The notes below the pieces were generated by a model, which saw only the letters and a list, made by a program, of their open reading frames with translations, had not been told where the DNA came from and ran no database searches. Of a DNA stretch of 32,248 bases, positions 23,267 through 25,811 are shown piece after piece (positions within the stretch are counted from its first letter, which is position 1; each line of letters opens with the position of its first letter). Made by a program: the position numbers and the translations under genes. The DNA is from Atribacterota bacterium (GTDB taxonomy: Bacteria; Atribacterota; Phoenicimicrobiia; Phoenicimicrobiales; Stramentimicrobiaceae): NCBI GenBank assembly GCA_028717805.1, contig JAQUNC010000030.1, forward strand, positions 1 to 32,248. Reading direction: 5' to 3'.

Positions 23267-23332
23267 ATTTTAGAAAATAAAAGACCCTATATACCACAAA
23301 TTAATTATATAGGGTCTTTTATTTTCTAAAAT
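23267..23332 (-). terminator. 27-bp perfect hairpin terminator (bidirectional form)
   Basis: Arms 23267-23293 and 23306-23332 pair without a mismatch around a 12-base loop. The core GACCCTATATA / TATATAGGGTC is flanked by AAAA and TTTT runs, so it could terminate in either direction. It lies 62 bases after the 76-residue gene and ends the riboswitch-controlled unit before the nikR promoter. Confidence 0.8.
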
Positions 23333-23393: not shown

Positions 23394-23606
23394 TCATTTG
23401 CTTTTTTCTAATTTGATGCATCTTGGAGCAGTAATTTTCTTAGCATACCTCAATGCTTTTTTCTCACTGGAAAAAATGCGGTCTCCAATCAATATGGGTG
23501 GACAAATGATTTTACCATTATAGGTCTGGTAACCAAACTTAACCAGATATTCGCCCTGATTTTCTGAAATTTCACAATAGTCGTAACTATTCCTTTCAAG
23601 ATTCAT
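23394..23606 (-). CDS. Unknown small protein downstream of the C39-like lipoprotein
   Basis: I do not recognise this small soluble protein. It has about 70 residues from ATG 23606, for which GAGAGG stands about 10 bases upstream; in-frame ATGs at 23615 and 23624 are alternatives. The sequence has alternating strand-like segments (GEYLVKFGYQTYNGKI, ILIGDRIF) and a basic C-terminus with one Cys. It follows the peptidase gene closely and precedes the strong terminator, so it should share the cyclic-di-GMP riboswitch control. Confidence 0.6.
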   Translation of the reverse strand: MNLERNSYDYCEISENQGEYLVKFGYQTYNGKIICPPILIGDRIFSSEKKALRYAKKITAPRCIKLEKSK

Positions 23607-23638
23607 ACCTTCCATACCTCTCATTTATCTACTAACAC

Positions 23639-24271
23639 TTATAGATAAGTTGGGGCAATAACAATAGCCATGCTATATAGAGTATTCGAAGTTAGATTCA
23701 AATGCATAAACTGCTCATAAGAGATAGTATAATTCTTACCAATGGTTGGATCATTAGTTATTATTTCTCTTTTCTCAGCATCAAATCCAATAATTACACG
23801 GGCATGAGCCAAGGGATTGCTCTCTTTATATTTCTGAATAGCTATCAAAGGAATCTGATTGGATAAATACTCTTCAATCTCTTCCATGGTCAAGACAGTA
23901 AAAGAAGCTTCAAAACCTAAATCTTTGGCAAACTTAACCATTTTATAAATATCTCCCAATCCATCTGGTTTAATTATTTTCTGAGCTAATTCTTGTTGGC
24001 TAATGGTAAGTCCCAAAAAATCGAGAGTCATTGCAGCCGAAGCAGGTAGACACCAATTAACTCCGGCATATTTCTGATAAGGAACCTCCAGATAAATCGA
24101 GCTGGCTTTAGCCTTATATTCTTTTTCTGGGTCTATGCTACCATCCAGATAGTTTTCCTGATTAACAAGATCTGTTTCCGGTAAAACTCCACTACAGGAT
24201 GTTAAAAAGAATACAGTTCCAATGATGATTAAAACTTTACTGATTTTCATTAACTTCGCCCAAACTCTCAT
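23639..24271 (-). CDS. C39-like cysteine peptidase, predicted lipoprotein
   Basis: I place the start at ATG 24271 (210 residues), 6 bases after AAAGGAG. The open frame continues up to 24370, but that part is riboswitch RNA. Residues 1-26 form a lipoprotein signal with lipobox LTSC (Cys26). The rest is a papain-like C39 domain: the catalytic Cys74 in NWCLPASAAMTLDFLG, His156 in LAHARVIIGFD, and Asn173-Asp174 in ITNDP. C39 peptidases cleave leader peptides or surface proteins. Here a membrane-anchored, extracytoplasmic enzyme under cyclic-di-GMP control suggests processing of a surface or adhesion protein; the target is unknown. It is linked to the small gene downstream. Confidence 0.8.
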   Translation of the reverse strand: MRVWAKLMKISKVLIIIGTVFFLTSCSGVLPETDLVNQENYLDGSIDPEKEYKAKASSIYLEVPYQKYAGVNWCLPASAAMTLDFLGLTISQQELAQKIIKPDGLGDIYKMVKFAKDLGFEASFTVLTMEEIEEYLSNQIPLIAIQKYKESNPLAHARVIIGFDAEKREIITNDPTIGKNYTISYEQFMHLNLTSNTLYSMAIVIAPTYL

Positions 24272-24315
24272 TTTATACTCCTTTATAAGCAGTTGAAAGG
24301 CATCAAAGTTTGGGC
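24258..24315 (-). promoter_or_regulatory. Riboswitch expression platform hiding the ribosome binding site
   Basis: In the mRNA, GCCCAAACT (24315-24307) pairs with AGTTTGGGC (24266-24258) over 9 bases. Inside it CCTTT (24300-24296) pairs with AAAGG of the ribosome binding site (24284-24278). The ATG at 24271 falls in the loop. Such nesting would hide the binding site, so cyclic-di-GMP probably acts on translation. No intrinsic terminator was seen between aptamer and gene. The sign of the response cannot be read. Confidence 0.5.
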
Positions 24316-24320
24316 AAAGA

Positions 24321-24409
24321 TAAAAGGTGGCAGTCTGGCGACCATAGTCTTTTTTTGACTTTAGGCCCAAAACTTTGCGCCCTATTCTTTCGAATAGTTT
24401 GCCTTTTTC
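24321..24409 (-). ncRNA. Cyclic-di-GMP-I (GEMM) riboswitch aptamer, gene-proximal copy
   Basis: Read on the minus strand, the element matches the GEMM-I pattern: P1 (AAAAGG/CCTTTT), then GGCAAAC, a hairpin closed by a GAAA tetraloop (CTATTC-GAAA-GAATAG), and GGGCGCAAAG. The tetraloop receptor half GGGCCTAAAG...CTATGGTC and the closing CAGACTGCC follow. Receptor and tetraloop both fit the canonical fold. It ends about 50 bases before the C39-like lipoprotein start. The preceding aptamer at 24444-24534 makes this a tandem arrangement. Confidence 0.9.
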
Positions 24410-24443
24410 AACCTTAATTTTATTTTCTATATTTTTTCAAAAA

Positions 24444-24534
24444 GAAAAGAAGTCGGTAGCCTGGCAATCTTAACAGTCTCCTGCCTTAGATCCAGTGCTT
24501 TGCGCCCTATTCTTTCGAATAGTTTGCCTTTTTC
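24444..24534 (-). ncRNA. Cyclic-di-GMP-I (GEMM) riboswitch aptamer, distal copy
   Basis: This element shares a 41-base identical block with the proximal copy (24498-24538 versus 24373-24413), covering the GGCAAAC, tetraloop and GGGCGCAAAG segments. The second half differs: the receptor reads ATCTAAGG...TTAAGAT in place of CCTAAAG...CTATGG, and P1 carries mismatches. This suggests the two aptamers may differ in ligand affinity. It is transcribed first. Confidence 0.85.
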
Positions 24535-24603
24535 AACCCCTAATTGACTTCTATTTAATTAATACTTGTATTAGCAATTATTAAATTAACAATGTTCTGT
24601 TTT

Positions 24604-24631
24604 ATTCTACTATATATATTCCCTAAATCAA
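24604..24631 (-). promoter_or_regulatory. Candidate promoter of the riboswitch unit
   Basis: Minus-strand TTGATT (24631-24626), 16 bases, and TAGAAT (24609-24604) are a moderate promoter about 70 bases before the first aptamer. The stretch between ddl and the riboswitches has no gene. Confidence 0.4.
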
Positions 24632-24668
24632 ATTTTTTAGACAATATTTTAAAAAAAAATAAAAAATT

Positions 24669-25811
24669 TTATTTTTCCAATAATTTTGAAGGATAATCTA
24701 TTTTATTTGATAACTTATCTTGATAACGCTCCAGGGCTAGTTGTATTAATTTATCTATCAATTCTCTAAAGCCAATTCCGCTTTTTTCCCATAATTTAGG
24801 ATACATACTAGCCTGGGTAAAACCGGGAATGGTGTTAATCTCATTTAAATATATCTGATAAGAATTTTTTCTTTTCTGCACCAAAAAATCAACTCGGGCA
24901 AAACCAGCAGCATCAATGGCTAAAAAAGCGAGTTTAGAAATATCTTGAATCTGTTTGGCAATTTTATTTGGTATTCCAGCTGGAATAATTAATTGGGTAT
25001 TTTCATCAATATACTTGGAATCATAATCATAATATTTACCTGCTGGTTTCACCTCTCCCACTACAGAAACTTCGGGTTCATCATTACCCAAGACACTACA
25101 CTCCACCTCAATATTGTCTTCTACTCCTTCTTCTATGATAATTTTGCGGTCATAGGCTGTAGCTAAATTAATAGCAGAGGCTAATTCATCTCTTTTTTCC
25201 ACCTTACTGATACCTACACTGGATCCTAAATTTGTTGGTTTAACAAAAAGAGGGAAGCATAGTTCCTTTTCAATTTCTGTTAATATTTTTTCTGGCTCAG
25301 AACTCCATCTCTTCCGTTTTATCATTATCCATCTGGTGTGAGGCAGACCTGCTTGCTGAAAAATCTTTTTCATTAACTCTTTATCCATTGATAAGGAAGA
25401 GGCAACTACGCCTGAACCCACATAGGGAATATCAATTAATTCTAATAAACCTTGAATAGTACCATCTTCACCATATGGTCCATGTAATACTGGAAAGATA
25501 ACATCTAATTTTTCCAAAAAAGAATAGTTTATTTCATTATTCTTCTTGTTAATGATAATAAACTGATGCTCATCTGTTTTACTTTCCCAGCATATAATCT
25601 CTTTTCCTTCAATCCTTCCAGTCAGTAATGCACGACAGCTATCTTCAGGAGATAACCAATAACCATTCTTGGTAATACCAATTGGTATTGCTTTATATTT
25701 TTCGGGATTAATGGCTTTAATAACTGAGGAAGCTGAACAGAAAGAAACCTCATGCTCACCAGATTTACCTCCAAACAATATTCCTACTTTTATTTTTTTT
25801 TGCTGTTTCAT
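24669..25811 (-). CDS. ddl: D-alanine--D-alanine ligase
   Basis: This cytoplasmic ATP-grasp enzyme joins two D-alanines for peptidoglycan precursors. Motifs in order are GGKSGEHEVS (14-23), HGPYGEDG (110-117), the ATP loop KPTNLGSSVG (191-200), KYYDYDSKY (259-267), and the metal/catalytic end RVDFL plus NEINTIPGFT (323-332). The tyrosine-containing DYDSKY region resembles D-Ala-D-Ala ligases more than VanA-type D-lactate ligases. The length of 380 residues is typical of the longer DdlA-like type. It is 36 bases after the thiS/moaD-like gene. Confidence 0.93.
   Translation of the reverse strand: MKQQKKIKVGILFGGKSGEHEVSFCSASSVIKAINPEKYKAIPIGITKNGYWLSPEDSCRALLTGRIEGKEIICWESKTDEHQFIIINKKNNEINYSFLEKLDVIFPVLHGPYGEDGTIQGLLELIDIPYVGSGVVASSLSMDKELMKKIFQQAGLPHTRWIMIKRKRWSSEPEKILTEIEKELCFPLFVKPTNLGSSVGISKVEKRDELASAINLATAYDRKIIIEEGVEDNIEVECSVLGNDEPEVSVVGEVKPAGKYYDYDSKYIDENTQLIIPAGIPNKIAKQIQDISKLAFLAIDAAGFARVDFLVQKRKNSYQIYLNEINTIPGFTQASMYPKLWEKSGIGFRELIDKLIQLALERYQDKLSNKIDYPSKLLEK

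Follow-up and report, generated by a model that had tools for sequence, protein, structure and literature searches.

The window, the whole 32,248-nucleotide stretch of Atribacterota DNA analysed here, yields exactly two RNA family matches in an Rfam/Infernal search, both to RF01051 (c-di-GMP-I, also called GEMM-I) and both on the minus strand. They lie between ddl (24669-25811) and the gene of a lipoprotein of 210 residues (start 24271), 39 nt apart in a leader that has one promoter box upstream and one operon downstream. In addition to genes for GGDEF and EAL proteins, the source genome (2.27 Mb, 97% complete) carries 13 GEMM-I elements. Elsewhere in it they precede genes for proteins that are secreted or at the surface (transglutaminase-like, Ig-like, InlB-repeat, and LRR lipoproteins), and also a sigma factor gene and one for a GGDEF-EAL protein. 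The features of the leader and its operon are the following:

24618-24642, minus strand: SigB/F/G-like promoter box (GTCTAAAAAATTTGATTTAGGGAAT), an exact pattern match
24452-24538, minus strand: distal c-di-GMP-I aptamer with receptor UAAGA (RF01051, 79.0 bits, E 3.6e-14)
24440-24451, minus strand: U-tract directly after distal P1 (UUCUUUUCUUUU; 10 of 12 U), putative terminator tail with P1 as the stem
24326-24413, minus strand: proximal c-di-GMP-I aptamer with the canonical receptor UAUGG (RF01051, 78.0 bits, E 6.4e-14)
24365-24377, minus strand: strand T (CAAAGUUUUGGGC), the 5' side of P3 in the proximal aptamer and an alternative partner of element A
24316-24325, minus strand: U-tract directly after proximal P1 (UUUUAUCUUU; 8 of 12 U)
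24304-24319, minus strand: switching element A (CUUUGCCCAAACUUUG), which pairs with T or X and is conserved in all orthologs
24296-24300, minus strand: anti-SD CCUUU, complementary to AAAGG of the Shine-Dalgarno (SD) sequence; counterparts in orthologs read by eye
24278-24284, minus strand: SD sequence AAAGGAG, read in the sequence 6 nt before the start codon
24254-24271, minus strand: start-codon region X (AUGAGAGUUUGGGCGAAG), the other alternative partner of A
23639-24271, minus strand: gene for the C39-like lipoprotein, 210 residues (PF13529, E 6.7e-16; PF03412, E 2.9e-7)
23394-23624, minus strand: partner gene, 76 residues (YDYCEI family), downstream in 17 of 17 ortholog loci examined
23274-23320, minus strand: hairpin AAAAGACCCTATA...TATAGGGTCTTTTATTTT, read in the sequence, probably the intrinsic terminator that ends the operon

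The two c-di-GMP-I aptamers are complete and score highly, and from their sequence both are predicted to bind the ligand. Each spans model positions 1-87 of 87 and scores well above the gathering score of 35 bits in the RF01051 search that the preliminary description had proposed; its two complete tandem aptamers are there, its span of 24321-24534 is correct to within 5 bases, and the identical block that it gave as 41 bases is exactly that long (GGTTGAAAAAGGCAAACTATTCGAAAGAATAGGGCGCAAAG; 24413-24373 and 24538-24498). The bases that contact c-di-GMP (G20, A47, and C92 in Vc2 numbering, mapped from Vc2 onto the model in this analysis) are present in both copies, and both have a GAAA tetraloop, with the receptor CCUAAA/UAUGG in the proximal copy and UCUAAG/UAAGA in the distal one. 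The change in the distal receptor noted earlier (UAAGA versus UAUGG) therefore stands, whereas the difference in affinity drawn from it is weakened: UAAGR is a common variant, found in about 9 of the 35 classifiable GEMM-I elements in the phylum, and UAAGA is retained in orthologous distal copies, so that the changed receptor says little about affinity.

The downstream gene was likewise correctly named as that of a C39-like lipoprotein. The Pfam match and the catalytic Cys, His, and Asp place its product in PF13529, with proteolytic activity as a prediction only; C74, H156, D174, and the LTSC lipobox are invariant in an alignment of 10 orthologs, and in two distant orthologs Glu replaces the upstream Gln. 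An AlphaFold2 model of the peptidase was too poor for use (pLDDT 53). The product of the partner gene is conserved at about 70 residues across the ortholog loci, and the 76-residue protein has no Pfam or NCBIfam match; its AlphaFold2 model is confident (pLDDT 84.7; three strands and one helix), and no significant match was found in the PDB. The hairpin that follows the operon was omitted by our simple terminator scan because its loop is too long for the scan. The peptidase may trim surface proteins.

Of 50 genomes of the phylum, 13 encode an ortholog of the lipoprotein, and a GEMM-I element upstream of the gene is kept across two families, down to 47% protein identity. The leader contains the tandem in G000, G004, G008, G039, G036, and G046 and a single copy in G003, G006, and G009; the leader of G001 is cut by the contig end, and those of G041 and G049 contain runs of N. 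Within the 41-nt block (also at L015) the two copies of a genome share the same G or A, which differs between genomes, the block reading GGGCGC in both copies of G000 and GGACGC in both copies of G004. This agreement within genomes and difference between them hints at concerted evolution, and suggests that gene conversion may have acted between the blocks of the two copies.

The U-tract that directly follows P1 in both copies recurs widely. Orthologous proximal copies have 9-11 U in the 12 nt after P1, and in 87 of the 113 GEMM-I elements of the order U takes up at least 8 of the first 12 positions, against a background of 5%, which rules out base composition as the cause; the same combination of P1 and U-tract is found upstream of many unrelated gene families. 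Across these 113 elements P1 consists of seven covarying pairs (pairs 3-6, z 4.7-8.8), with G-C/A-U exchange at pair 3 and A-U/U-A exchange at pair 6. Past P1 (beyond pair 6) pairing drops to the shuffle level and the U content is still 56-83%, and the U-tract as a mere pairing partner of the A-rich 5' flank was rejected beyond the seven pairs. Elements without a U-tract have a weaker P1 (4.9/7 versus 6.7/7 pairs, p 5e-10), a comparison that is partly circular because the first U bases take part in the outer pairs. The outer stem of P1 is different and longer in another family of the phylum, where the U-tract comes correspondingly later (six sequences, by eye), and among about 14 GEMM-I elements inspected from other phyla (plasmids, viral contigs) only 1 has such a U-run.

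Several of the elements have a leader of 27-45 nt, too short to hold a second terminator, and in those with leaders shorter than 50 nt no classical terminator lies between the U-tract and the start. From this anatomy we infer that the ligand-stabilised P1 would itself be the terminator stem. A stem followed by a U-tract and by no separate terminator, although some families here have an extra one, is the arrangement of transcriptional direct occlusion, a group that a 2024 review treats as hypothetical: it grants that a ligand could in principle stabilise a terminator directly, considers it unlikely that a case will be found, and cites guanidine-IV alone as a possible one (PMC10907184). More than 80 GEMM-I elements here have the anatomy that such a terminator needs, which makes the question testable.

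The proximal copy has a further platform, in which element A pairs alternatively with T or with X. The alternation is conserved by covariation in 11 orthologs, in which the A-T duplex averages -16.6 kcal/mol (shuffled, -6.05 ± 0.66) and the A-X duplex -16.5 kcal/mol (shuffled, -6.8 ± 0.7), about 16 and 14 standard deviations beyond the shuffles, respectively. When X was resampled with synonymous codons, the observed A-X strength was reached in 0 of 500 cases (mean -13.6, best -15.96). The minimum-energy fold of the leader pairs A with X in a long hairpin around the SD sequence and AUG, and the predicted accessibility of the SD sequence shifts as expected in 3 of 4 orthologs tested. This A/T/X strand exchange is a new control anatomy of the proximal copy, and it predicts translational shut-off by c-di-GMP. 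Element A is mostly absent after distal copies and in other GEMM families (mean z -2.1 in the cluster of this gene family, counting the distal copies that lack A, and 0.0 elsewhere); as a general GEMM-I feature of the order it was rejected, being specific to the proximal copies of the lipoprotein family.

Upstream of the tandem, the box at 24618-24642 was found with the pattern GTCTAAA-N9..14-GGGAAT and is conserved upstream of the ortholog leaders. It resembles SigB-type promoters, whose consensus we take to be GTTTAA-N12-15-GGGTAT. Exact matches number six in the 2.27-Mb genome, five of them upstream of a GEMM-I element, and 24 genomes of the order together contain 75 boxes, of which 49 have a GEMM-I element 28-336 nt downstream on the same strand, with the reverse geometry seen in 0 of 75. 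The genome also encodes a SigB/F/G-type sigma factor, which matches TIGR02980 with an E of 2.5e-26, though short of the model's own cut-off, and the SigF structure 1l0o with an E of 1.9e-10; its gene stands behind the box and a GEMM-I element, as do its orthologs in at least five further genomes. This sigma factor may be the one that reads the box.

At the sigma factor locus (L138; G000:C53:3500-11325) a PAS-GGDEF gene, the sigma box, a GEMM-I element, the sigma gene, and a PAS/GAF gene follow one another in this order. The C-terminus of the PAS/GAF product is HD-GYP-like as read by eye, so that a sensor, a sigma factor, and a probable c-di-GMP-degrading enzyme stand in one locus, which is conserved in other genomes. 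The sixth exact box, the one without a GEMM-I element (L137:1014-1038, G000:C1), precedes a type IV pilin gene by about 350 nt; the pilin genes of other genomes (cluster 7) have both box and GEMM-I, and an Rfam search of the pilin leader that has the box alone gave nothing credible.

The reading that we prefer, and hold to be evenly poised between right and wrong, is that the tandem is an OFF switch for c-di-GMP, built in two layers, and controls a conserved operon made up of a surface protease gene and its partner. Transcription would start at the SigB-like promoter, and RNA polymerase leaving each aptamer would transcribe the U-tract; bound c-di-GMP would stabilise P1 as the stem of an intrinsic terminator, so that either copy could stop transcription by itself. 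A transcript that got past the two would meet a third gate at the start codon: with ligand bound to the proximal aptamer, T would be locked, A would pair with X, and the ribosome site would be closed to translation, and without ligand A would take T and leave the start region open. Such a series of gates would sharpen the response and, since all of them close with ligand, the lipoprotein peptidase and its partner would be made when c-di-GMP is low.

A broader proposal for the order falls somewhat short of even confidence. Its GEMM-I elements would be their own ligand-stabilised terminators and would gate the regulon of a dedicated SigB/F/G-type sigma factor, itself behind the same box and riboswitch; in the tandems control of translation would come on top, and in one family its sign may be the opposite, making a band-pass. 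SigB-like box and riboswitch would then constitute a compact two-input circuit, reading a sigma factor and a second messenger, in a hardly cultured phylum, and the suggested output is a surface protease, resembling the PPEP-1 system of Clostridioides difficile. In the open-licence literature searched, no paper connected Atribacteria to riboswitches for c-di-GMP or to this sigma box.

By folding, P1 is barely stable on its own (median -3 kcal/mol), its apo probability exceeds 0.5 in 69% of elements, and in the proximal copy of the window no P1 is predicted without ligand (+1.5 kcal/mol). A stem so short and A-U rich, with so high an apo probability, might terminate constitutively, or the U-tract might be a mere pause. 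If the OFF switch were purely translational, only the proximal A/T/X exchange would act, the U-tracts would serve as pauses for ligand binding, and the distal copy would add little or sharpen binding; P1 is indeed weak for a terminator, A/T/X is the best supported of the platforms, and the single-aptamer orthologs (G003, G006, G009) retain it. We nevertheless consider this rather unlikely, because the distal copies have U-tracts and mostly lack element A, and because in many GEMM-I elements of the order the U-tract alone stands between P1 and the SD sequence, so that it must do more than pause.

Alternative terminator hairpins that abut the U-tract and draw on the 3' part of the aptamer did not exceed chance (mean -4.9 versus -4.7 shuffled). 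Were c-di-GMP to turn the operon ON, by preventing termination or freeing the ribosome site, the peptidase would belong to the sessile state, in which c-di-GMP is high; induction by c-di-GMP is common among surface proteins, and some GEMM-I elements here look ON in that the aptamer sequence AAUCGCC pairs with the SD region. The characterised GEMM-I triplet Bc3-5 is ON as well, its units being transcriptional ON switches in series (PMC4759541). An ON switch here is still quite improbable: an alternative terminator hairpin competing with the aptamer is missing, the ligand should stabilise P1, which is the sole conserved stem adjoining the U-tract, and the logic of A/T/X yields OFF.

Variants of GEMM-I that sense 3',3'-cGAMP exist (PMC9481103, PMC8835794), and one or both aptamers might bind it instead of c-di-GMP; this we reject as very improbable, since the c-di-GMP-selective G (the first of GGCAAAC) and C (of GCC) are kept in both copies and in the orthologs. 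There is next to no chance that the pair is a decayed or accidental duplicate without function, as the single copy in G003, G006, and G009 might suggest, given that both copies score 78-79 bits and that both are retained, with their copy-specific receptors, in distant relatives.

Set beside known systems, the locus belongs to the c-di-GMP-I family, in which its variant of the expression platform and its promoter context are new; the preliminary description mentioned neither these platforms nor the promoter box or the circuit around the sigma factor. The tandem arrangement itself is known, as had been said there, with 347 doublets and 12 triplets published (PMC9481103). Like the published tandems, this one places two complete copies, one after the other, ahead of a single gene, for which a sharper response is expected; unlike the ON units of Bc3-5, its platforms differ, the distal copy having a U-tract only and the proximal copy a U-tract and the start-codon strand exchange. 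Aptamer sequence and structure, ligand-contact bases, and upstream location are those of RF01051 in general, whereas the P1 that usually runs straight into a U-tract sets this order apart from RF01051 elsewhere.

Three characterised systems share parts of this design. Cd1 of C. difficile is a c-di-GMP-I OFF switch with a separate downstream terminator hairpin that competes with an antiterminator (PMC9262584); c-di-GMP is expected to promote termination here too, but no separate hairpin was found in the leader. In the HMP-PP (thiS) riboswitch the aptamer is embedded in the terminator, which the ligand disrupts, giving an ON switch (PMC6478431). Aptamer and terminator would likewise be one structure beside a U-run here, although the ligand would stabilise the terminator (OFF), and the aptamer is a three-way junction. 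A class I OFF riboswitch for c-di-GMP controls zmpI/PPEP-1 of C. difficile, a protease of surface proteins (PMC6366702); in both cases a surface protease gene would be repressed through c-di-GMP, by a single riboswitch for the metalloprotease PPEP-1 and by a tandem for the lipid-anchored, C39-like cysteine peptidase of the window.

Other designs were seen among the GEMM-I elements of the phylum. In cluster 5, which is one gene family, the SD sequence itself forms the 3' strand of P1, and L066, L155, L158, L165, and L172 have this direct translational occlusion design, with the SD sequence inside that strand (ACUCCCG ... CGAAGGAGG). It is the translational counterpart of the P1 and U-tract design, and the simplest reading of both sets of sequences is that the stabilised P1 regulates, as a terminator where it lies beside a U-tract and as a block to translation where it contains the SD sequence. 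The lipoprotein leaders L004, L035, L044, and L046 combine P1 and U-tract with a separate conserved classical terminator (ACCCC...GGGGUUUUU) about 17 nt further on, for which these aptamers offer no obvious anti-terminator; this speaks against P1 as the terminator stem.

The cluster-0 tandems (L148, L156, L161, L174) have a distal copy with P1 and U-tract and a proximal copy with little P1, for which ON-type SD sequestration is predicted, the aptamer sequence AAUCGCC pairing with GGCGAUU. An ON-like proximal copy conflicts with a distal OFF copy unless the pair is a band-pass, so these tandems may either be band-pass switches or have U-tracts with another role. In L054, L056, L057, L064, L067, L072, and L075, from other families of the phylum, a conserved element GCGUCAC(UCUC), complementary to the GGACGC region of the aptamer, precedes the start together with an anti-SD.
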